Assembly: GCF_012913485.1 (NCBI RefSeq)
Contig: NZ_CP051774.1
Location: 3,720,001-3,784,000, forward strand
Reading direction: 5' to 3'
Source of the DNA: Luteolibacter luteus
GTDB lineage: Bacteria; Verrucomicrobiota; Verrucomicrobiia; Verrucomicrobiales; Akkermansiaceae
Length of the DNA: 64,000 nt
The translations under genes were made by a program, and so were the position numbers. Shown piece by piece: positions 5,301-30,973 of this stretch (its first letter is position 1; the number at the start of each line of letters is the position of its first letter). The notes below the pieces were generated by a model. The model did no database searches. It was not told where the DNA came from and was given only the letters and a program-made list of their open reading frames with translations.

Positions 5301-6107
5301 ATGTCGGACGACGCGGACTTTGCTACGAACATCAAGCGCTTCACGGGTTTCGCCGGTCACTACGACGCCTTTCGCCCGACTCTGCCCGAAGCGCTCTCAG
5401 GCCTGCTGCTCGAAGTCGCCCGCGCTCATAAAAGCAGCACTGTCGTCGATCTTGGCAGCGGCACCGGTCTCTCCACCCGCTACTGGAGCGGGAAGGTAAG
5501 GGAAGTCATCGGCATCGAACCCACCGATGCCATGCGTGAGGAAGCGGAACGTCACGGCGGGGCAGGCGTTTCTTATCGTCGCGGCTTTTCCCATGACACC
5601 GGACTTCCCGATGGGAGTGCTTCGATCGTGGTGTGCTCGCAGGCGCTGCACTGGATGGATCCGCAGGGGACTTTCAAGGAGGCGAAGCGTATCCTTAGGC
5701 CGGGAGGTGTTTTCGCGGCCTGCGATTATGATTGGCCGCCGGTTACGGGAGTCTGGGAACTCGATCAAGCCTATCAAGCCTGCGACCAGCGCGGTCGTGA
5801 AATGGAACGGGCACACGCCCTTTCCGAAGGCATCAAGTTTCAAGAGAAGTCCGGCCATCTGGATCGCATGAGATCGAGCGGAGCCTTTCGTTGGACACGT
5901 GAGGTTCTACTCCATCACGAGGAACAGGGAGACGCAGCGCGCCTTGTGGGGCTGCTCTTCAGCCAAGGCAGCGTGCAGACCGTGCTGAAAGCCGGTTTCA
6001 ACGAAGCTGATATGGGCATCGATCGTTTCCGCGAGCTTGCGACCGCTCTCATGCCCCAGGCCAAGCGATGGCTGTGGTGCTCGCGCGTGAGGATCGGTGT
6101 TGTCTGA
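5301..6107 (+). CDS. class I SAM-dependent methyltransferase
   Basis: A 268-residue soluble protein. Motif I (VVDLGSGTGLST), an acidic residue ending strand 2 (GIEPTDAMREEAE), motif post-I/II (ASIVVCSQALHWMD) and the motif III region (KRILRPGGVFA) are all in order. The pattern QALHWMD resembles the small-molecule methyltransferase group related to yeast Tmt1 and UbiE-like enzymes; the acceptor is unknown. The start at 5301 (MSDDADF) is chosen because the upstream in-frame residues are arginine-rich and not family-like. It ends directly before the convergent DUF5069 gene. Confidence 0.82.
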   Translation: MSDDADFATNIKRFTGFAGHYDAFRPTLPEALSGLLLEVARAHKSSTVVDLGSGTGLSTRYWSGKVREVIGIEPTDAMREEAERHGGAGVSYRRGFSHDTGLPDGSASIVVCSQALHWMDPQGTFKEAKRILRPGGVFAACDYDWPPVTGVWELDQAYQACDQRGREMERAHALSEGIKFQEKSGHLDRMRSSGAFRWTREVLLHHEEQGDAARLVGLLFSQGSVQTVLKAGFNEADMGIDRFRELATALMPQAKRWLWCSRVRIGVV

Positions 6108-8603: not shown

Positions 8604-9899
8604 TCAAATCGGCCCCGAAGGCAATCCGAATGCACCTAGCAAGACTGTGATCTCCGGGAATCCGGGTCGTCTGGCGACCTCCGGATCCATGCAATGCCGG
8701 ACGAGGTCCCGCAGTTCTTCCGGCGCCTTGCTTCCTTCCCAGCGCTCCAGCAGTTCCTCAAGCAGGCAGCCGAAGGCGCGGACTTCCAGCTTCTCTGCCA
8801 GGCGATCCGTTCTGCCGTGAAAGGTAGCCGCGCCGAAGTCGCCCAGCAGTGCATGACCTTCCTCATCCCGCAGAATATTGTGAGCATAGAGGTCGCCATG
8901 CATGATGCCCTTCGCGTGCAAGGCTCGCGCGGCCTCCGCGATGCCTCTGGCGATCTTCAGGAGAACGGAAGGCGGAAAGCGGATGTCCTCCGCATATACG
9001 TCCCGCGTGCAGCTTTGGAAATCCGGCGGGCCCGCCAGATTCGTGAAGCCGCCTCCGATCCATTCCATGACCAGGCCGGAAGCGTCTTCCGGATGTGACG
9101 CAAGTTCCGCGATCACCGGCACCAGATGAGGATGTGCGCCGGCGGCGAGACAGGCGGCCTTTTCACTGGCGGGCAGGCCATCGCTTGTCATCTCGCCCTT
9201 GAAGATCTTCACGGCGACATGGCGGCTGCCGTTTTGCCATCGGGCTCGCGAAATAACTCCGGAGGCTCCTTCGCCAAGCTTCTCCATCAGTTCCAACTCA
9301 TCCCAGGCGATCGAACCGGCGCGGCTGCCTGTTGCGTCCGCGGCCACCGGATTCCCCGAGTAGGCCAGCCAAGAGAGCTTCGGAAGATGAAAGAGCCAAT
9401 CGGGCAGCACTTCGAACTGGTTCGCGGCGAGCCGGATCAATTCGAGGTTCACGCAGCGCGCCATCTCTTCGGGCAGACGACTGAGGCGATTGCCCGCAAG
9501 CATCAGCTTTTGCAGTGGCAGGCACTTCCCGATGGAGGAGGGGAGTTGCTCGATCCGGTTGTCGGTAAGAATGAGCCAACGCAAGGAGGGAGGCAGCGAA
9601 GCTTCATCCACCCGTGCGATCCGGTTCGACTTGAAACCGAGCATTTGCAGCGAGGGCAAGTTGCCGATCACATCGGGTAAATGCTCGAAGTTGTTCTGAG
9701 AGCAAAAGAGAATGCGGAGCTTCTTGAGCCGAGCCAAGTCCTGCGGGAGATCATGCAGGCAATTGCCAGAGAGGTTCAGGATCTCGAGCGTCTCTGCGAG
9801 CTCGAAGATCTCCGGAGGGATTTCAGTGAGACCGCAGGAGAGATCCAGGCGAGTGGCACCGGCAAGCTGGCCGTTGCGCACTTGTGCCAGCGTGTCCAT
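8604..9899 (-). CDS. leucine-rich-repeat Ser/Thr protein kinase
   Basis: 431 residues, apparently cytoplasmic. Residues about 15-185 form seven or so leucine-rich repeats of the L-x-x-L-x-L-x-x-N-x-[IL]-x-x-LP type. Residues about 200-430 form a Hanks-type kinase: glycine loop GEGASG (209-214), Lys231 in VAVKIF, catalytic loop HGDLYAHNIL (His334, Asp336, Asn341) and DFG at 354. The key residues are present, so it should be active. The usual Arg of HRD is Gly, making it a non-RD kinase. The gene sits 3 bp after the thioesterase and directly before the two-component pair, suggesting joint expression with it. Confidence 0.9.
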   Translation of the reverse strand: MDTLAQVRNGQLAGATRLDLSCGLTEIPPEIFELAETLEILNLSGNCLHDLPQDLARLKKLRILFCSQNNFEHLPDVIGNLPSLQMLGFKSNRIARVDEASLPPSLRWLILTDNRIEQLPSSIGKCLPLQKLMLAGNRLSRLPEEMARCVNLELIRLAANQFEVLPDWLFHLPKLSWLAYSGNPVAADATGSRAGSIAWDELELMEKLGEGASGVISRARWQNGSRHVAVKIFKGEMTSDGLPASEKAACLAAGAHPHLVPVIAELASHPEDASGLVMEWIGGGFTNLAGPPDFQSCTRDVYAEDIRFPPSVLLKIARGIAEAARALHAKGIMHGDLYAHNILRDEEGHALLGDFGAATFHGRTDRLAEKLEVRAFGCLLEELLERWEGSKAPEELRDLVRHCMDPEVARRPGFPEITVLLGAFGLPSGPI

Positions 9900-22204: not shown

Positions 22205-23404
22205 ATGCCTGTAGCCCTCGAACCTTTGCCCCAGCACCGAGCCTTGGTGGACTGGATCCGGACCCGCGAGCCCGAGGTTTGGGCGTGGTATTCCGATGCC
22301 GAGCGTCTCACGCAGGACGCCGAGGAGGTCAGGCTCTCGCTGCTGCGCGATTCCTACCGGATGGACGCGGAAGGGCATCCGGAGCTCTTCGCGGAGATCG
22401 GTGCGGCGCAGGCGGCGCTGGGTCTGGAGGGGATCAAGGTCCACGCCTATCAGGCTCAGGGCCAGATCGGCCCGAATGCGGCCATTTGCTATCTGCCGGG
22501 TGAGGCTCACCTCATTTTCTCCGGCCCCATTCTCACGCTGCTTTCGCCGATCGAGCTCCGGGCGGTGATCGGCCATGAGCTTGCGCACTACCTTCTCTGG
22601 CAGATGGAGGAGGGTGCCTATTATTTGGCGGACCGGATCCTGCATCAGTCCGCGGCTCATCCCGAGGCGAAGTCCAGCCATGGCCAGAGCGCGCGCTTGT
22701 GGAGCCTGGCGACGGAGCTCTTCGCGGATCGTGGAAGCTATCAGGCCGCAGGGTGCCTCGACACTGCGGTTGCGAGCCTGGTGAAGACCTGTACCGGTCT
22801 CGCCCAGGTCAGCGGCAAGAGCTACTTGGGACAAGCAGCGGAGATCTTTTCGAAGTCAAAGCCGAAGACCGAGCAGCTGACTCATCCGGAAACCTACATG
22901 CGGGCCTTTGCGCTGAAACTGTGGGTGGAGGACGAAGCCGATCTGGAGACCGCCGTCGCCCGCATGCTTGAGGAAAGCGATGGCCTGGATGATCTGGATC
23001 TGATGCAGCAGGCGAAGCTCGCCATGCTCACCCGGCGTTTTCTTGGAGATCATCTTCGCCCGGCATGGTTCCGGAGCGAGGCGGCGCTGGCTCACGCGAA
23101 GCTCTTCTTTCCCGACTTCTCGCTTGGTGAAGAAACGGACGAGGCGCTGCCCGCCGATTTGTTAGAGCTCTCGAAGGCGCGTCGGGAGTATCTCTGCCAG
23201 GTGATGCTCGATTTCTGTGCGGTCGATCCGGAGTTGGACGAGCTGCCGCTCGCCGCGGCCGTCGAGCGCGCGAGAGCAATGGAATGCCTGGGCCACTTCG
23301 AGAAGATCGCAGCGAAGGAACTGAAGGTGAAAGCCAAGGATCTGAAACGCCTCAAGGAAACCGCCTCTGAAATTCTCACCGCAGCCTCCGCAGCCAAGTC
23401 ATGA
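22205..23404 (+). CDS. M48-family zinc metallopeptidase
   Basis: A 399-residue protein without signal peptide or clear membrane segments. The zinc motif VIGHELAHYLL gives His124, Glu125 and His128, and the third ligand is probably Glu171 in TELFADRGSY (the E-x-x-x-D/A-D-R pattern of M48). The C-terminal 150 residues are helical and lack known motifs. Unlike HtpX or BepA it looks cytoplasmic. Its TGA overlaps the ATG of the giant helicase gene (ATGA), so the two are translationally coupled and probably work together. Confidence 0.82.
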   Translation: MPVALEPLPQHRALVDWIRTREPEVWAWYSDAERLTQDAEEVRLSLLRDSYRMDAEGHPELFAEIGAAQAALGLEGIKVHAYQAQGQIGPNAAICYLPGEAHLIFSGPILTLLSPIELRAVIGHELAHYLLWQMEEGAYYLADRILHQSAAHPEAKSSHGQSARLWSLATELFADRGSYQAAGCLDTAVASLVKTCTGLAQVSGKSYLGQAAEIFSKSKPKTEQLTHPETYMRAFALKLWVEDEADLETAVARMLEESDGLDDLDLMQQAKLAMLTRRFLGDHLRPAWFRSEAALAHAKLFFPDFSLGEETDEALPADLLELSKARREYLCQVMLDFCAVDPELDELPLAAAVERARAMECLGHFEKIAAKELKVKAKDLKRLKETASEILTAASAAKS

Positions 23405-26400
23405 CCGATAGCCCTTTTCTCCGCTTTCTTGAGCATGGTGCCGGTCAGGGCGGCTTTGAAGTCGATGATGTCCTTGCCGCGGTCTTGCCGCTGATGCGGG
23501 AAGTCGCTGCGATCCATGAAGCAGGAAGGGTTGCCCCTTTGCGCGGCCTGTCTTCACTGGTCGTCCATGAAGAACGCGCCCTCGGGCTTTCATCCCCCGA
23601 CGGAATCGAGCCATCCTCGAATGCCGCGAAGGTCTATCAGCTCCTCGCGCCGGTTGGTCACGGGATTCAGGTGATCGGCGGGACGCGCCGTGAGTCGGAG
23701 GACATGTGGGTCACAAAGGTGTCCAACCTTGATGTCGGCTCGGGGGACGAGGAGATCACAAAGCCGCTTTACCTTCCCGGATACGTCACGTGGGAGCACG
23801 CCATCGGTCACCATGACGAGCTGACTGATATTCACTCGCTGGGCTTGCTGCTGGCCAGCCTTGCCTGCGGGCTCGATTTCTCGGATCGCGACGAGTTGGA
23901 GAAGTTCGCGAATCATCGCAAGAACCTGTTCGCTCTCGCTCCACGCCTTCATCCGGTGGTTTCGGCGCTGATCGTCTCGATGACCGAGCTGCATCGCGGC
24001 AAGCGGGCTCAAGATCTGAGCTCGTTGATCCGGCAACTGGAGAACTACCGGGGCCAGCCGGTGGATACCGATGTATTCGCCCTGCCCGGCCTCGAGTCCG
24101 CGACGAAGAGCGGCCGCCGGAAGATCATCCAGACCCATCTCCGCGATCGTCTCTTCGAGGTTTCGCGCCGGAATCGCCTGCTTTATTTCAAGAGCTCCCA
24201 GACCACGCTCAATCTCACCCATGCGAGCGTGCCGCTGGTGCTCGATTATCGCAATATCCAGCCGGACCAACTGCTCTTCTGGCATGAAGGCGTGGCTGCG
24301 GAGCTGGGCTCCGGGAAAGCGCTCCCCTTGCAGAAATGGCTGCGTCTTGAGGAAGCGCCTTACTTGCCCGGACAGCTCGACAAGCTGATCAGCGAGGCGC
24401 GCCGCAGTCGTGCGGAATATGGCTTCTCGCAGCTTCGTCTCGTAATTGCCTTCCTGCGTTGGAACAATCTCAAGGAGAGCCCGAACGAGCGCATCCACTC
24501 GCCTCTCCTGCTCCTCCCCGTGGAGTTGGTGAAGAAGAAGGGCGTAAAGGATCATTACACGCTCGAGCCGCAGGGCACGGAAGCGGAGGTAAACCCGGCG
24601 CTGCGCCATTATCTGAAGCAGCTCTACGACCTCGATCTACCCGTGATGGTGGATCTGCGCGAGACGAGCTTGGCTGCCTTCCATGAGAAGGTGAAGGCGC
24701 TCATCCATGCCACCGAACCGGGTGTCACTCTGGAGCTTTCGGACAAGCCGAAGATCCAGTTGATCCACGAGCGAGCGAAGCAAAGTCTCGATCAATACCG
24801 TCGCCGCATGGCGCGACAGGCCCGTCGCGTGAATCGAAGCGGCAGCTTGGACTATAGTTACGATCGCTCGGATTTCCGGCCGCTTGGATTGCAGATGTTC
24901 CAGCGTCTGGTGCTGCCCGCGCCCTTGCCGCTGCGGGAGATGGCAGGTGCTCCGCCACGGCCCCGCACGCCCTTCATGGTGCCTCCGGCGGAGGCCACGG
25001 TGACGGACCGCCAGATGTACGCGCTGGTGGAGGAGGCGGAAGGGAATCCCTATTCGTGGGAGTTCGATCTCTGTGCGGTGACGCTCGCGAACTTCAATTA
25101 TCGCAAGATGACCCTGGTGCGCGACTACGCGAACCTCATCGAACACGACACGCCGAACGCCGCTTTCGACCGGGTTTTCTCGATCGAGCCCAAGGCCATC
25201 GAACCGGAATCCGCACCATCTCTTCCACCCTCGGATCAGCATCTCATCATCGCGGCGGATGCCACCCAGATCGGAGCGATCGCCAAGGCGCGCCGTGGAG
25301 ACAGCCTGATCATCCAAGGGCCGCCGGGAACCGGTAAATCCCAAACGATCACGAATCTCATCGCGGACTATGTGGCGCGTGGACGGCGAGTCCTTTTCGT
25401 GTGCGAGAAGCGCGCTGCGATCGATGTCGTTTTCCACCGCCTGCGCCAGCAGGGCTTGGATGAGCTCTGCTGCCTGATCCACGATTCGCAGACGGACAAG
25501 AAGGAGTTCATCCTGAATCTCAAGCAGACCTACGAGCAATGGCTCGCGGCTGGAGATGAAAATGGCCAAGGCGAAGCCATGCGTGCGGCGGCTCTGCGCG
25601 CGATGGATGCCGAGCTCGCGGCGCTGGAGAAATATCTCGCACAGATTCACTCGGTGCCTGCGGGATCGAATGCCACGGCGAACGAGTTGCTGCAGCGCTT
25701 GATCGAGATCCGCGGGATCCATGATGGACAGGCCTGTCCGCCTCTGGATGCCGTCGCGGAAGAGCGGCTGCCCGATTTTAAGCAGTGGCAGGAGCACGGC
25801 GAGAGCGTGATCCGCCTCGGAGAGGTGCTGCGTGATCTCGGGGCGTCCTCGGTGTTTGCCCTTCATCCGATGCGTTGGCTCGGCGAGCCGGTCATTACCC
25901 GTGATCATCCTCTGGAAGGCCTCGCAGGCAGCTTCGACGAGGTGGAACGGAAGCTCGATGATCTCGATGATGCGCTCCAGCAGACCGGCCTGCCGGCGGA
26001 GCACTGGGATACGCTGGCCGAGATCGGGCAACTGCTAGGGTTCGCCAACCGGTTGCTGCCACTGGCAGAGCGGGGATTGCTTGGCTTGTTAGATAGCAGC
26101 AGCGAACGCCACGCAGAGTTCGTGAAGCTCGTCGGGGATTACCAGGCGAAGCGCCAGCATCTTGAAGCAAAGCGGACCAAGACGGCGAATTGGACCGACA
26201 AGCTTCCGCCGGAGGACACGGCCAATGCGCTGGCTCTCGCGCCGAAGCTTCAGGGCGTCTTCAAGTTTCTCAATCCTGCGTGGTGGAGATTGCGAAAGGT
26301 TCTCAATGCCCGGTACGATTTCTCAAAGCACGCCGTCGCTCCGGCTTGGGAGCAGATTCTCTCCGATCTTTCTGCCGAGCACGCCGCCGCGTCCGGCCTT

Positions 26401-28860
26401 GCGGAGCTTGAGGGGCGATGCACCCGGGAATTTGCGAGCGCTGACCCGGCAGCCCTTCATGCCGATCTAAAGCTTCTCGCTGATCCCTCCGCGCCACCCG
26501 CTGTCATCGCTCTGAAGAGCCAGCTGCTCTCTTCGGATCAAGGCCCGGCCTTGGTCAAGATGCTTGCCTCCCTCAATTCCAGCTTCCAAGTGCTGGAGCG
26601 GGACTTGAAGGAACTCATCGACCATGCGGAAGGAAGCAGCCTCTCCGTCCTTGCGGCCGCGGTGCGTGAGATGCGGGAGGAAATGGATAGTCTCCCCGAA
26701 TTGCTTCCGGCCCTTCGCGATCTGGCTGCTGCTCCGGAATCCCTGCGCCGTTCCGTGCGGGAGTTTCCCTTCACCTCGGAAGAGTTTGAGGCCGCCTGTG
26801 CGCGCAAGACCCTCGAGGCACTCTATCGCGAGGACCGCATGCTTCAGCGCTTCGATTGCCACGTGCTTCAGCAGAAGCTCGATCGTCTGGCAGCCGCACA
26901 TCGCCAATGGCTGGAGCACAATGCCGCTTGGATCCGCGGCCAAGTGAGACGCCGCTTTGTCGAGCACGTCCAGCTTGCGAACCAATCGGCTACGGTGCTT
27001 TCGGCGGACCAGAAGCTCTTCAAGAAATCCTACAGCGCCGGTCGCCGCGAGCTGGAGCACGAGTTCGGCAAGACGATGCGCTACAAGTCGATCCGCGATC
27101 TCGCCGCCGGCGAAAGCGGGGAGGTGGTCCGCGACCTCAAGCCGATCTGGCTGATGAGCCCGCTCTCCGTTTCGGACGCGCTGCCGATGGAGCCTGATTT
27201 GTTCGATGTCGTCATCTTCGACGAAGCGAGCCAGATCCCGGTGGAAGATGCGGTGCCCGCCGCCTACCGCGCGCCGCAGGTCATTGTCGTGGGTGACGAA
27301 ATGCAGCTTCCACCGACGAGCTTCTTCAGCAGTGGCAGCGATGCCGAGGACGAGATCACCGTCGAAGAGGAAGGTGAGTCCGTCAGCGTGCTCATGGATG
27401 CCGATAGCTTCCTCACGCAATGCGCGCGGAATCTGCCCAGCACCTTGCTCGCGTGGCACTACCGCAGCCGCTATGAGTCGCTCATCAGCTTCAGCAATGC
27501 GGCTTTCTATGGGGGCGAGCTCTACACCATCCCTGACCGCCAGATGGCGCTTGATGACAAGGCGGAACTGCTCGTGGAGAGCCCCATGGAAGCTGCCGAA
27601 CTCGTTCCCGCGATCCTCGGGCGCCCGATCAGCTACATCCGCTGCTCGAAGGCTCCGTATATCGATCGCCGCAATCCCGCCGAAGCCGCCGTGGTCGCCC
27701 AGCTTGTCCGCGAGCTCCTCGTGTCAGGAAACAAGCTTAGCATCGGTGTCGCCGCCTTCAGCGAAGCCCAGCAGGGAGAAATCGAATCCTCCTTGGAATC
27801 CCTGGCCAAGGAGGACAGTGCTTTCGGCACGCTTCTTGAAGCCGAGTATGTCCGTGAAGAAGACGACCAATTCTGCGGGCTCTTCGTGAAGAACCTCGAG
27901 AACGTTCAAGGCGACGAACGCGATATCATCCTCATGTCCGTTTGCTACGCGCCCGATACCGATGGGAAGATGCGGATGAACTTTGGTCCCATCAACCAGC
28001 GCGGCGGCGAGAAGCGTCTCAATGTGATCTTCAGCCGCGCCCGCCACCACATGGTGCTGGTGAGCAGCATCGGCCATCAGCAGATCACCAACGACTACAA
28101 CGACGGCGCCCGAGCACTGCGGAACTTCCTCCACTACGCCGAGAGCCTTTCCCGTGGCGAGCCCGCCGCTGCCCGCCAGGTGCTGGATGGCCTCAATCCC
28201 CTCAAGCGCAAGTCCCTCGCCTCCGCAGCCACCGGCAGCGCCATCGCCGGACAAATCGCCGGCGCCCTCAAGCGGCGCGGCTGGTCTGCCGATACCGATG
28301 TCGGCCAGAGCCGCTTCCGCTGCGATGTCGCCGTCCGCGAACCGGGCGCGGATCGCCATCAACTCGCCATCCTCATCGAAGGAACACGCACGACGAATGT
28401 CCTCGAGCACTTCCACACTCGTCCGGGCATCCTCCGCGCCTTCGGCTGGCAGGTCGTCTTGGTGGTCGCGAAGGATTGGTGGCACGAGCCCGAAGCCGTG
28501 CTCACCCGCATCGAACGTCTGCTCCGCCGCGAGATTGCGGAGGAGGAAGAAACCATTATCGAAGAAGAACCTCAGCCTTCACCCGTAGCGCCTCCCGCAT
28601 TGGAGCCGCCCGTGACTCCCGGGCCTCCATCTCTTCCCGCCCCAAGCACCCTAGGCCGCCGCTTCGAGTTTACCGAGGGCAACTCCCGGAAATTCTGGGC
28701 CGTCGCGCAAGAGGGCGCCTCGCTCGTGGTCCGCTTCGGCCGTATCGGCACTACCGGACAGGTTCAAACGAAGACCTTCGCCGATGAACCGCGAGCCCAG
28801 CGTGAAATGAACAAGCTCATCACCGAGAAGACAGGAAAGGGCTACGTCGAAGTGAGCTAG
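23401..28860 (+). CDS. giant DUF4011/SF1 helicase with kinase-like N-terminus, nuclease-like and WGR domains
   Basis: 1819 residues. About 20-220: kinase C-lobe-like segment (REVAAIHEAGRV, then TDIHSLGLLLASL), lacking an N-lobe and the HRD and DFG motifs. About 240-600: DUF4011-like region starting RLFEVSRRNRLLYFKSSQT. About 615-1560: SF1 (COG1112/UPF1-like) helicase with Walker A GPPGTGKS (Lys646), Walker B VVIFDEAS (Asp1274, Glu1275), GDEMQLPP, motif V ENVQGDERDIILMS and motif VI RLNVIFSRARHH. About 1610-1715: a Vsr/DUF559-like endonuclease fold (FRCDVAV, AILIEG, then WQVVLVVAKDWW). 1750-1819: WGR domain (VVRFGRIGTTGQ). The architecture recalls antiphage helicases such as Mokosh type I, but no PLD nuclease is present. 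Confidence 0.85.
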   Translation: MTDSPFLRFLEHGAGQGGFEVDDVLAAVLPLMREVAAIHEAGRVAPLRGLSSLVVHEERALGLSSPDGIEPSSNAAKVYQLLAPVGHGIQVIGGTRRESEDMWVTKVSNLDVGSGDEEITKPLYLPGYVTWEHAIGHHDELTDIHSLGLLLASLACGLDFSDRDELEKFANHRKNLFALAPRLHPVVSALIVSMTELHRGKRAQDLSSLIRQLENYRGQPVDTDVFALPGLESATKSGRRKIIQTHLRDRLFEVSRRNRLLYFKSSQTTLNLTHASVPLVLDYRNIQPDQLLFWHEGVAAELGSGKALPLQKWLRLEEAPYLPGQLDKLISEARRSRAEYGFSQLRLVIAFLRWNNLKESPNERIHSPLLLLPVELVKKKGVKDHYTLEPQGTEAEVNPALRHYLKQLYDLDLPVMVDLRETSLAAFHEKVKALIHATEPGVTLELSDKPKIQLIHERAKQSLDQYRRRMARQARRVNRSGSLDYSYDRSDFRPLGLQMFQRLVLPAPLPLREMAGAPPRPRTPFMVPPAEATVTDRQMYALVEEAEGNPYSWEFDLCAVTLANFNYRKMTLVRDYANLIEHDTPNAAFDRVFSIEPKAIEPESAPSLPPSDQHLIIAADATQIGAIAKARRGDSLIIQGPPGTGKSQTITNLIADYVARGRRVLFVCEKRAAIDVVFHRLRQQGLDELCCLIHDSQTDKKEFILNLKQTYEQWLAAGDENGQGEAMRAAALRAMDAELAALEKYLAQIHSVPAGSNATANELLQRLIEIRGIHDGQACPPLDAVAEERLPDFKQWQEHGESVIRLGEVLRDLGASSVFALHPMRWLGEPVITRDHPLEGLAGSFDEVERKLDDLDDALQQTGLPAEHWDTLAEIGQLLGFANRLLPLAERGLLGLLDSSSERHAEFVKLVGDYQAKRQHLEAKRTKTANWTDKLPPEDTANALALAPKLQGVFKFLNPAWWRLRKVLNARYDFSKHAVAPAWEQILSDLSAEHAAASGLAELEGRCTREFASADPAALHADLKLLADPSAPPAVIALKSQLLSSDQGPALVKMLASLNSSFQVLERDLKELIDHAEGSSLSVLAAAVREMREEMDSLPELLPALRDLAAAPESLRRSVREFPFTSEEFEAACARKTLEALYREDRMLQRFDCHVLQQKLDRLAAAHRQWLEHNAAWIRGQVRRRFVEHVQLANQSATVLSADQKLFKKSYSAGRRELEHEFGKTMRYKSIRDLAAGESGEVVRDLKPIWLMSPLSVSDALPMEPDLFDVVIFDEASQIPVEDAVPAAYRAPQVIVVGDEMQLPPTSFFSSGSDAEDEITVEEEGESVSVLMDADSFLTQCARNLPSTLLAWHYRSRYESLISFSNAAFYGGELYTIPDRQMALDDKAELLVESPMEAAELVPAILGRPISYIRCSKAPYIDRRNPAEAAVVAQLVRELLVSGNKLSIGVAAFSEAQQGEIESSLESLAKEDSAFGTLLEAEYVREEDDQFCGLFVKNLENVQGDERDIILMSVCYAPDTDGKMRMNFGPINQRGGEKRLNVIFSRARHHMVLVSSIGHQQITNDYNDGARALRNFLHYAESLSRGEPAAARQVLDGLNPLKRKSLASAATGSAIAGQIAGALKRRGWSADTDVGQSRFRCDVAVREPGADRHQLAILIEGTRTTNVLEHFHTRPGILRAFGWQVVLVVAKDWWHEPEAVLTRIERLLRREIAEEEETIIEEEPQPSPVAPPALEPPVTPGPPSLPAPSTLGRRFEFTEGNSRKFWAVAQEGASLVVRFGRIGTTGQVQTKTFADEPRAQREMNKLITEKTGKGYVEVS

Positions 28861-28875: not shown

Positions 28876-30873
28876 TCACTGCACGATTTCCTGCGGCGCA
28901 TCCGGCAGCGCATCGATGAAGAGCCTGCCGTAGCGCTTCGTCAGGATCCGGTTGTCGAGAATGCACACCAGACCGTGATCCTTCGCCGTGCGGATCAGGC
29001 GGCCCACCCCTTGGCGCAGCTTCAGGATCGCCTCCGGCACCGAGTATTCCATGAAGGGATTTCCGCCTTCCGCCTCCAGCGCTTCGAGGCGCGATTGGGT
29101 GAGCGGATGATCCGGCACCGCGAAAGGCAGCCGGGTCACGATCACATTCGAGAGCGTCTCACCCGGCACGTCGACCCCGGTCCAGAAGCTATCCGTGCCG
29201 AAGAGGATGCTGTCCACATCCCGGCGGAATTCCTCCACCATCCGGTGCCGCGGCATGCCGTCGCCCTGCACCAGCAGGCGCCAGCCCTTCTTCTCGAAAT
29301 GGCTACGCAGCTTGTCCGCCGCATCACGCATCGTGCGATAGCTCGTGAAGAGCACGAAGGCCTTCCCCTCGCTGAATTCCACTGCCGTGCGGATCGCTTC
29401 CACCAGAGCCTTCCCATACTGGGGACTCGTCGGCTCCGGCATATTCTTCCAGATGCAGATCTTCATCTGCTTTTGGAAATCGAAGGGGCTGCCAATGCAC
29501 AGCGCCGGCACATCGTCCGCGCCCACCCGGCCGCGGAACCAGCCGAGCTCCGGATCGCCCACGCCCAGCGTCGCGCTGGTCATCACGCAGGACTTTCCGG
29601 GCGCGAAAAGGAGCGGCTTCAGCTTGTCCGCCACCCGGATCGGTGCGGCGTGCAGGGAAAACAGGCTCTCATCGCGGCCCGAGCGCTCGATCCAGTGGAC
29701 ATGGTCGTCACCGCTCTGGTCGAGGAAGCAGCCGATCGCCCCATGAGTCTCGCGCAGCTTGCGAGAAGCATCTTGGAGCTCGGCGCGCGTCGTCTCGCTT
29801 TCCACATCCGCCGCCAGTGCATCGATCTCCTGCCAGAGACGGCGCAGCGGTTCAGCCGCGGAATTCGGCACCAGTTCCGGCTCGCGGACCCGCCATTCCT
29901 TCGAGTATTCGCCGAAATGCGCGGCGTGGCCCAGATTGCCGAAAAAATCATCGGCTGATTTCAGCGCCTCCTCCACCGCGTTCATCACCGAGGCCTTCCG
30001 GAAAGAGCGGAGGATGCCCTTCTTGGTCCTCGGATTGTAGAGCCGCTGGAGGTCGAAGCGCATGCCCGCCTGGCTCACACGGAGGCCCAGTTGGATCGCC
30101 GCCACCTGCTCCAGCGTGTGCGCCTCGTCGAGGACCGCGAAATCGTTCGGAAACAGGAAACCCGAGGGCTTCTCCTCCTCGAAAGTATCGCCGGTATTCA
30201 GCAGCGCGAAGAAGAGCGTGTGGTTGACCACGATCAGGTTCGCATCCGCCGCTGCCTTCCGGGCTTCTTGGAAGAAGCAATTTCCCCGCGGACCGCAGTA
30301 GCGGGCGGTGCAGACATGAGGCTCCGAGCAGACCTGCAGCCACACCTTCATCGAGGGGCTGAAATCGAGATCGCTCAAGGTCCCGTCCTTCGTGCCCTCC
30401 GCCCAGCGGCGGATCTGCTCCAGCTCGTCGTTCTCCGTCGAAGTGAAAAGGTCGCCGGATTGCTCGAAGGCCCGCTTCAAGCGCGCCGGGCAGAGGTAAT
30501 TTTGCCGCCCCTTCAGAAGCACCGCCGGCAGCTCCTCGCCGAGCAGCTTGCGGACGATCGGAATGTCCTTCCGTACCAGCTGCTCCTGCAGATTGATCGT
30601 GTGGGTGGAGATGATCGCTTTTCGCCCCGTTTGCAGGGAGTACTTGGAGGCGGGTAGCAGGTAGGCCAAGGACTTGCCAACCCCGGTGCCTGCCTCCGCG
30701 ACGAGGCAGCGTTTCTCCACCAGTGCCTCCGCGACCGCGACCGCGAGCTGTTGTTGCTCAGGCCGGAACTCGAAGTCCCGGGAGCGAGCGAGGCTGCCGC
30801 CGTTCGAGAAAGCCAGACCGATTTCCTCCACGAACGCGTCGGGCAGCGGCTGTCCCTCGAGGGCGGAAATCAT
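28876..30873 (-). CDS. ATP-dependent DNA helicase, DinG/YoaA (XPD-like)
   Basis: A 665-residue SF2 helicase. Motifs: Q-motif region FEFRPEQQQLAVAVAEAL, Walker A AEAGTGVGKSLAY, DEAH (AVLDEAHTLEQ), SATLG and the final GVGRLIRT. Four Cys between motifs Ia and II (YLCPARL, HVCTARYCGPRGNC) are placed to bind the XPD-type 4Fe-4S cluster. Such enzymes unwind 5'-3' and resolve R-loops or damaged forks. The ATG at 30873 (MISALEGQ) fits the family better than the track start at 30912. It is convergent with the giant helicase (15-bp gap) and divergent from the LptF/G gene. Confidence 0.93.
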   Translation of the reverse strand: MISALEGQPLPDAFVEEIGLAFSNGGSLARSRDFEFRPEQQQLAVAVAEALVEKRCLVAEAGTGVGKSLAYLLPASKYSLQTGRKAIISTHTINLQEQLVRKDIPIVRKLLGEELPAVLLKGRQNYLCPARLKRAFEQSGDLFTSTENDELEQIRRWAEGTKDGTLSDLDFSPSMKVWLQVCSEPHVCTARYCGPRGNCFFQEARKAAADANLIVVNHTLFFALLNTGDTFEEEKPSGFLFPNDFAVLDEAHTLEQVAAIQLGLRVSQAGMRFDLQRLYNPRTKKGILRSFRKASVMNAVEEALKSADDFFGNLGHAAHFGEYSKEWRVREPELVPNSAAEPLRRLWQEIDALAADVESETTRAELQDASRKLRETHGAIGCFLDQSGDDHVHWIERSGRDESLFSLHAAPIRVADKLKPLLFAPGKSCVMTSATLGVGDPELGWFRGRVGADDVPALCIGSPFDFQKQMKICIWKNMPEPTSPQYGKALVEAIRTAVEFSEGKAFVLFTSYRTMRDAADKLRSHFEKKGWRLLVQGDGMPRHRMVEEFRRDVDSILFGTDSFWTGVDVPGETLSNVIVTRLPFAVPDHPLTQSRLEALEAEGGNPFMEYSVPEAILKLRQGVGRLIRTAKDHGLVCILDNRILTKRYGRLFIDALPDAPQEIVQ

Positions 30874-30973
30874 GCGGACGGCATTTGCACCGGGGAGCGG
30901 CCCCCCTGCCAAGCACCAAACCGGCGATCTTTACAAACCGCCAATGCATCGCATGCTCCCGCCCAGTCCTGCC

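Follow-up and report, generated by a model that had tools for sequence, protein, structure and literature searches.

An M48 metallopeptidase coupled to a DUF4011-family helicase in Verrucomicrobiota, a candidate immune module adjoining type XIII-like retrons in two genomes

Genes at the locus

The window, by which we mean the whole 64,000-nucleotide stretch analysed here, comprises bases 3720001-3784000 of the 6.41-Mb single-contig genome of Luteolibacter luteus. Its forward strand carries an M48 metallopeptidase gene (22205..23404; 399 aa, ATG start) and a DUF4011 SF1 helicase gene (23401..28860; 1819 aa, ATG start; Pfam, PADLOC), joined by a four-base ATGA stop/start overlap (23401..23404), exactly as a preliminary description of this DNA had placed them. 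These are no chance frames: at 11 other loci both genes have relatives with open frames, the helicases there being 42-78% identical to that of the window; at one of the 11 (L166) the contig runs out shortly before the stop codon of the helicase. The locus is chromosomal, and the pair has a GC content like that of its surroundings. Neither Rfam, at gathering score, nor a tRNA scan gave a match in the window. A DinG-like neighbour (28876-30912) was considered as a third component and rejected, a homologue being present in all eight of eight genomes, four of which are without the pair.

The 399-aa protein matches Peptidase_M48 (PF01435) at E 7e-7 (29.7 bits against a Pfam cut-off of 20.3) and has the HExxH and E...D ligand motifs of family M48. 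Inspection places the zinc-binding motif HELAH at residues 124-128 (22574..22588, forward strand) and the E...D motif at 171-175, within an ELFADR motif at residue 171. The peptidase is predicted to be soluble, as had been proposed, because none of its 19-residue windows exceeds a Kyte-Doolittle value of 1.48. It has no PADLOC match, and no NCBIfam model matches it above cut-off. A PDB profile search with the M48 alignment returned nothing meaningful, and an AlphaFold model built on four sequences reached a pLDDT of 63.9, with no PDB fold match at E 0.001. A TerB domain at its C-terminus was suspected by eye and rejected (hhalign 4.4%, hmmsearch below threshold).

The large protein contains, in order, a kinase C-lobe-like segment (aligned residues 124-227; 23770..24081), DUF4011 (250-405; 24148..24615; Pfam 6.7e-19), the N-terminal part of an SF1 helicase (AAA_11, 620-697; 25258..25491) with the Walker A motif GPPGTGKS (25318-25341), the C-terminal helicase part (AAA_12, 1344-1556; 27430..28068), an MTES_1575/Vsr-like nuclease domain with eroded motifs (1618-1706; 28252..28518; Pfam 2.5e-11) and a WGR domain (1754-1818; 28660..28854; Pfam 4.2e-18), all on the forward strand and both helicase parts assigned by Pfam. 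The helicase motifs QGDERD and RLNVIFSRA are intact in the AAA_12 part. With DUF4011, a Walker A/B core and MTES_1575 in this order it belongs to the DUF4011 SF1 helicase-nuclease superfamily, and in the PDB its profile matches UPF1-like helicases (SEN1, SMUBP-2, UPF1) and a WGR protein. The preliminary list of domains thus holds for DUF4011, helicase, nuclease-type domain and WGR, and has to be reduced for the kinase. Of the 20 kinase matches in this genome, 15 were set against a profile of ten homologous N-termini, which gave a probability of 90.3% (hhalign, E 1.4e-6; TerB control 0.4%). The alignment covers the C-lobe only, HRD and DFG are absent by inspection, Pfam gives no match at E 0.1 and the AlphaFold model of this part has a pLDDT of 39.6. 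The segment looks like a pseudokinase remnant. One of the 20 kinase matches, to a Ser/Thr kinase, lies in the window itself (8808-9293, minus strand, inside a 431-aa ORF).

Distribution and specificity of the pair

We found 12 loci with the pair, spread over two classes and four families of Verrucomicrobiota, the phylum covered by the deep search, and in addition three proteins in which a sister M48 domain is joined to a related DUF4011 helicase. The pair loci, in families f1, f4, f13 and f68, are those of the window, G110, G273, G561 (on the contig of the named locus L008), G559, G185, G011, G410, G657 (locus L149) and G586, together with the named MAG loci L009 and L010; M48 identity falls to 34.5%. 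The suspicion that the genes might be neighbours only in close relatives is thereby answered. Nor do they behave as a universally conserved core: within the genus of the window M48 is present in 6 of 18 genomes, in one of them fused.

In its class the window peptidase (P0001) matched six of 285 genomes: in five, counting that of the window, over the full length, and in the sixth within a 1902-aa frame. An M48 profile (A1) matched 51 of 387 genomes of the phylum at E 0.001. Five of these matches are strong (< 1e-80), in the window genome, G110, G185, G188 and G410, the last belonging to another class than the window genome; the remaining 46 are at 2.6e-14 or weaker. Three of 200 genomes from the family of G188 matched (G188, G586 and G657), while the 288 genomes from the class of G410 gave six matches at 1e-8, strong only in G410 itself. 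A scan with P0001 of one genome per species gave three named loci, in Verrucomicrobiaceae (two) and Verrucomicrobia MAGs.

At all 12 pair loci the helicase gene lies downstream of the M48 gene on the same strand. The M48 stop reads ATGA in ten of them (in G586 the helicase start codon is not fixed), the overlap at L149 is of 8 bases, and at L009, where M48 ends in TAA, there is none. This sole pair locus without overlap has a 190-aa ORF between the two genes (L009 5216-5788). M48 and helicase identities rise and fall jointly (r 0.97 over 21 pairs among seven loci), as expected for joint descent. WGR is found in 11 of the 12 pair helicases, that of G410 being without it.

All 15 M48 proteins of the clade are linked to a DUF4011-type helicase. 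At E 0.001 DUF4011 itself is present in 38 of the 285 class genomes, in 37 of them above cut-off. Seven of the 38 belong to the M48 set, namely G000, G110, G273, G185, G011, G188 (fusion) and G141 (no M48); beside the other 31 DUF4011 loci no M48 was found in the stretch fetched (A1 profile, E 0.5), several of these controls ending at contig ends and one (L082) having no recognised helicase frame. By these counts the coupling is real, conserved and specific. G141 carries an orthologous helicase (L081 8576-14227), with WGR and without M48 nearby or, at E 0.001, in the genome, a natural experiment on whether the helicase can function by itself.

Fused proteins and their phylogeny

Fusion proteins of about 1900 residues, with N-terminal M48 and C-terminal helicase and nuclease region, occur in G188, in G586, which has both the pair and a fusion, and in G893, a member of the genus of the window. 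In the G188 fusion M48, DUF4011, AAA_11, AAA_12 and MTES_1575 are all above their Pfam cut-offs; WGR is absent from all three. A TerB profile matches the fusion P0003 at residues 311-406 (14.5 bits; E 1.8e-6 for a one-sequence search), and a TerB-like part is likely, from this match, to lie between M48 and DUF4011. Just downstream of the G586 fusion is a 42-residue fragment with a stop (G586:C9:82903-83031, L148 about 5903-6031), 62% identical to the M48 part of the fusion and perhaps a partial duplicate.

The M48 tree places pairs and fusions on one side of a branch (100/99) and seven generic M48s on the other; the seven are the only weaker matches fetched for this tree, and none has a DUF4011-type helicase neighbour in the stretch fetched. 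In the helicase trees the fusions do not fall within the pair clade but lie closer to helicases without M48, and trees holding pair and fusion helicases together are disfavoured (AU p 0.021 with one fusion, 0.032 with three). This is moderate evidence, given the long branches in the helicase trees, for two separate couplings of M48 with a helicase.

An eroded nuclease beside an intact protease

We compared the nuclease region of 16 M48-linked proteins (12 pair, one lone and three fused) with that of 18 other DUF4011 helicases, in which the typical motif is D...E-x-D-G-x-x-Y-H...RDR. None of the 16 M48-linked proteins has the Glu, which 13 of the 18 comparison helicases carry, and none has the first R of RDR, which all 18 carry, so that the intact motif of an Hhe-like active nuclease is absent from the M48-linked set. 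The first Asp (D1) has become Pro in three of the 16. Acidic residues are left at D1 in 13 of 16 and at D3 in 16 of 16, for which reason the losses fall short of proving that activity is gone, and the domain is still recognised by Pfam as MTES_1575 in three proteins scanned. Such erosion is not unique to M48-linked proteins: in a sister group without M48, five of seven members no longer have the Glu. By comparison all 15 M48 proteins of the clade retain HExxH and the E...D motif (171-175) of the peptidase. With key nuclease motifs lost, the ancestral nuclease domain has probably given way to the protease as effector. The idea of a sense-and-cleave design, raised in the preliminary description, gains indirect support from this pattern of eroded nuclease and intact protease motifs.

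Cassette and flanking genes

The pair loci of the window, G110 and G273 have one flank in common, which contains an RND efflux operon together with a 216-aa gene for a putative regulator, and differ on the other side; inheritance of the pair is thus partly vertical. In the congener G219, which is without the pair, the flanks of G273 meet with one base between them. The left-hand alignment of the two genomes breaks off no more than two bases from the helicase stop (93% identity over 1222 bases), and the right-hand one begins 54 bases before the peptidase start (81% over 1212 bases). The stretch missing in G219 is 6.7 kb and contains no genes but these two, and from this empty site the pair comes or goes as one 6.7-kb cassette; loss in G219 and gain in G273 are both compatible with it.

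No M48 relatives were found in plasmids or viral contigs, nor in phages, for which the query was a divergent homologue (P0004). In phages the helicase (P0002) gave one partial match, with MT836269.1, where the matched region is that of a DUF4011-type helicase. Its core has relatives on 439 plasmid records, all of which cover less than 80% of it.

We found no defence island around the window. PADLOC matched a few of 64 neighbour proteins from eight loci, one being a SWIM protein at L009, and a further 26 neighbour proteins include, among the matches listed, a SWIM protein in G586 and a HerA-like protein near the G893 fusion. Those neighbours that can be named are mostly ordinary, such as ketol-acid reductoisomerase, a thioredoxin-like protein and RND efflux genes, with GreA beside a fusion. 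In the form proposed, the association with defence genes is not borne out: the window lies outside a defence island and the nameable neighbours of pair loci are mostly ordinary. Not anticipated in the preliminary description, two pair loci run into a type XIII-like retron and one fusion adjoins a DNA methylase and an HNH nuclease. This last set, in one direction beside the G586 fusion (L148 537-5681), consists of an N6 DNA methylase, a protein with two GHKL ATPase domains, a small protein (response regulator-like by eye) and a PtuB-like HNH nuclease, and may be an undescribed restriction-like set. In the wider DUF4011 family a DUF3320-annotated helicase lies by type I-E cas genes on the Salinibacter ruber plasmid pSR118 (L175 4945-10110), one of two regions opened. 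DUF4011 on its own does not signify defence, since according to PMC10250203 a DUF4011 gene belongs to the core genes of all the P. aeruginosa isolates studied there.

In the open PMC literature we found no combination of DUF4011 with WGR and no published account of ProA or of ProA with DUF4011. Nor did we find there a description of an M48-helicase pair of this kind, and the reports on retrons and WGR do not touch on this pair.

Linkage to type XIII-like retrons

Two of the 12 pair loci, L009 and G586, from distant genomes, are linked to a retron. Both have on one strand M48, helicase, a further protein and one of SWIM_XIII type, then an msr-msd-like RNA and a type XIII-like reverse transcriptase (RT), complete in G586 and with only its start seen at L009; we take the PADLOC label XIII (WGR_XIII, SWIM_XIII, RT_XIII) to mean retron type XIII. 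At L009 the further protein, of 628 aa, starts 3 bases after the helicase stop, and the SWIM protein (SWIM_XIII 2.6e-134, PADLOC) overlaps it by ATGA; in G586 the corresponding protein begins 102 bases after the helicase and is followed by a SWIM protein matching SWIM_XIII at 4.4e-141. The G586 reverse transcriptase matches RT_XIII at 1.3e-129 (PADLOC), its best PDB match being the retron Ec86 RT (2.3e-36). At L009 only the start of an RT is in the sequence seen, an ORF beginning MLGFLKRLFMPKRNVSRLSVEGDD after the RNA, like the G586 RT start by eye. Identities between the two loci are 43% for M48, 49% for the helicase, 43% for the protein before SWIM and 57% for SWIM, a similar divergence of all genes, as expected if the unit was inherited together.

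The RNA between SWIM and RT is conserved; in G586 fully complementary 14-nt arms close it. At L009 a repeat finder gave no arms of 11 or more, and the predicted fold has in the same place a bulged closing stem of different sequence; the inner hairpin is identical in the two. Stability z values are -4.75 (G586) and -3.68 (L009), and none of 200 shuffles was as stable in either. Rfam gave two matches on this stretch, both far below gathering score. Two congeners of the window genome, G893 (L171 7364-13970) and G219 (L172 5730-12310), have type XIII-like retrons of their own, in which a perfect inverted repeat of 20 nt lies between SWIM and RT.

The units of G893, G219 and a Methylobacterium plasmid consist of WGR-HEAT, SWIM and RT, with no M48 or DUF4011 helicase in the stretch searched. 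The window WGR is 40% identical to WGR_XIII over 67 columns (tblastn, 38% over 107 residues, 8.7e-5). The helicase profile matches the G219 WGR-HEAT protein at 1.7e-6, a match that presumably runs through WGR. Where the pair is present, then, it is the helicase that bears WGR, and the protein ahead of SWIM is without it. A HEAT identity for that protein was suggested by eye and dropped (no Pfam or PADLOC match; hhalign to WGR-HEAT 0.5%), so that replacement of the WGR-HEAT subunit is argued from position and WGR.

No retron parts were found near the other ten pair loci, and a SWIM homologue is absent from nine of the ten pair genomes searched (those other than L009 and L010), the window's included. 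At the window no RT or SWIM lies near the pair, which therefore forms no type XIII retron in the sense of RT_XIII and an RNA by the accessory genes.

Interpretation

The pair is probably a little-known immune module, which most likely senses nucleic acid and cuts protein. More specifically, we read M48 and helicase as one antiviral module, probably acting by abortive infection, with the helicase as sensor and the protease as effector. We hold this reading at even chances, because no defence setting surrounds the window. The DUF4011-SF1 helicase would be sensor and motor, binding foreign or damaged nucleic acid, with WGR helping to grip DNA and ATP hydrolysis marking the binding as real. The M48 peptidase would be held inactive in complex with the helicase and then released or opened, so as to cleave a host or phage protein and stop infection. 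In some lineages, where the module adjoins a type XIII-like retron, the retron would be the guard that releases it. We infer the antiviral function, and with it the complex, its trigger and substrate and this order of events; what the sequences show is the coupling, the fusions, the cassette behaviour, the state of the protease, helicase and nuclease motifs and the retron linkage in two genomes.

A bolder form, which we put forward tentatively and regard as somewhat doubtful, makes of M48 and the pseudokinase-DUF4011-helicase-WGR sensor an exchangeable immune module, found alone, fused or at the WGR-HEAT place of a type XIII retron, where the retron would guard a proteolytic effector. The ancestral nuclease would have been swapped for a protease, perhaps twice, given that the fused helicases stand outside the pair clade.

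Repair of DNA-protein crosslinks or stalled complexes would equally call for a protease and a helicase in one operon or one polypeptide: the helicase would meet a protein roadblock on DNA and the attached metallopeptidase would digest it. SPRTN/Wss1 is the model for such digestion of DNA-bound roadblocks, and WGR domains occur in DNA-damage proteins. The peptidase has a weak SprT-like match (7.4e-5; 23 bits against a cut-off of 25.6), and the neighbours at several loci are ordinary. The metal ligands, HExxH...E...D, are however those of M48, whereas the SprT site uses a third His. Patchy presence in the genus, the nearness of the helicase to defence models and the retron linkage also speak against repair, which we consider unlikely. 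It is a little less probable again that the helicase-nuclease is the effector, as in Hhe-like proteins, and that M48 only matures, activates or turns it over. The nuclease domain that Pfam still recognises and the acidic residues kept at D1 and D3 would suit such a role, but Glu and the R of RDR are gone from every M48-linked protein and Pro replaces the first Asp in three, while three genomes have protease and helicase in one polypeptide, and the protease motifs are intact throughout the clade.

Much the same low probability attaches to a cellular stress or regulatory protease system that has no antiviral role and whose helicase descends from a defence family. A chromosomal locus with one flank common within the genus, a GC content like its surroundings and the failure to find a mobile element carrying M48 among plasmids, phages and viral contigs are what such a system would lead one to expect. 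The cassette with its empty site, the fusions and the retron linkage are not, nor are the many plasmid-borne relatives of the helicase core, even if partial. We return to the sensor helicase with a protease effector as the preferred reading. If it is true, a metallopeptidase effector is added to the DUF4011 helicase family, effectors are exchanged on one sensor scaffold, and there is a handle on type XIII retrons through the canonical WGR-HEAT subunit and what replaces it. What makes the locus of interest is that a metallopeptidase is repeatedly and specifically coupled with a defence-family helicase, together with the retron form.

Comparison with known systems

The closest PADLOC models to the helicase are those of defence proteins, PDC-S37 (4e-209), Hhe (5.5e-89) and MkoA (8e-38), and NCBIfam anti-phage ProA (NF058533) matches at 1e-209. 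Its supposed kinship with antiphage helicases is upheld to this extent, but it falls below the equivalog cut-offs of both ProA and Hhe. With PDC-S37 and ProA it shares a DUF4011-family SF1 helicase and a C-terminal nuclease domain (matching stretches 537-1724 and 545-1732, respectively), yet at 699.6 bits against the ProA cut-off of 1500 it is not a member. Hhe, a single protein, likewise has DUF4011, SF1 helicase and Vsr-like nuclease; the window helicase reaches 452.7 bits against a cut-off of 2000 (NF042953) and is no member of this family either. The window system adds the M48 gene, the pseudokinase segment and WGR, and its nuclease motifs are eroded.

Mokosh type I, in which an active kinase domain is combined with a helicase, has a related helicase core (MkoA 128 bits, MkoC 74 bits), but the match is weaker than those to PDC-S37 and Hhe, and the window protein, with a C-lobe remnant lacking HRD and DFG in place of a kinase, is not of this type. 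Type XIII retrons are approached at L009 and G586, where the pair precedes SWIM_XIII and an RT (or RT start), and in the window by the resemblance of its WGR to WGR_XIII; the window pair differs in having no SWIM or RT nearby, and the units of G893, G219 and Methylobacterium in having no M48 or DUF4011 helicase. Lastly, Hachiman (HamAB) is likened to the module by logic, with no membership claimed: its effector is a nuclease, and PMC12278908 describes a sensor helicase that first restrains the effector and later activates it.
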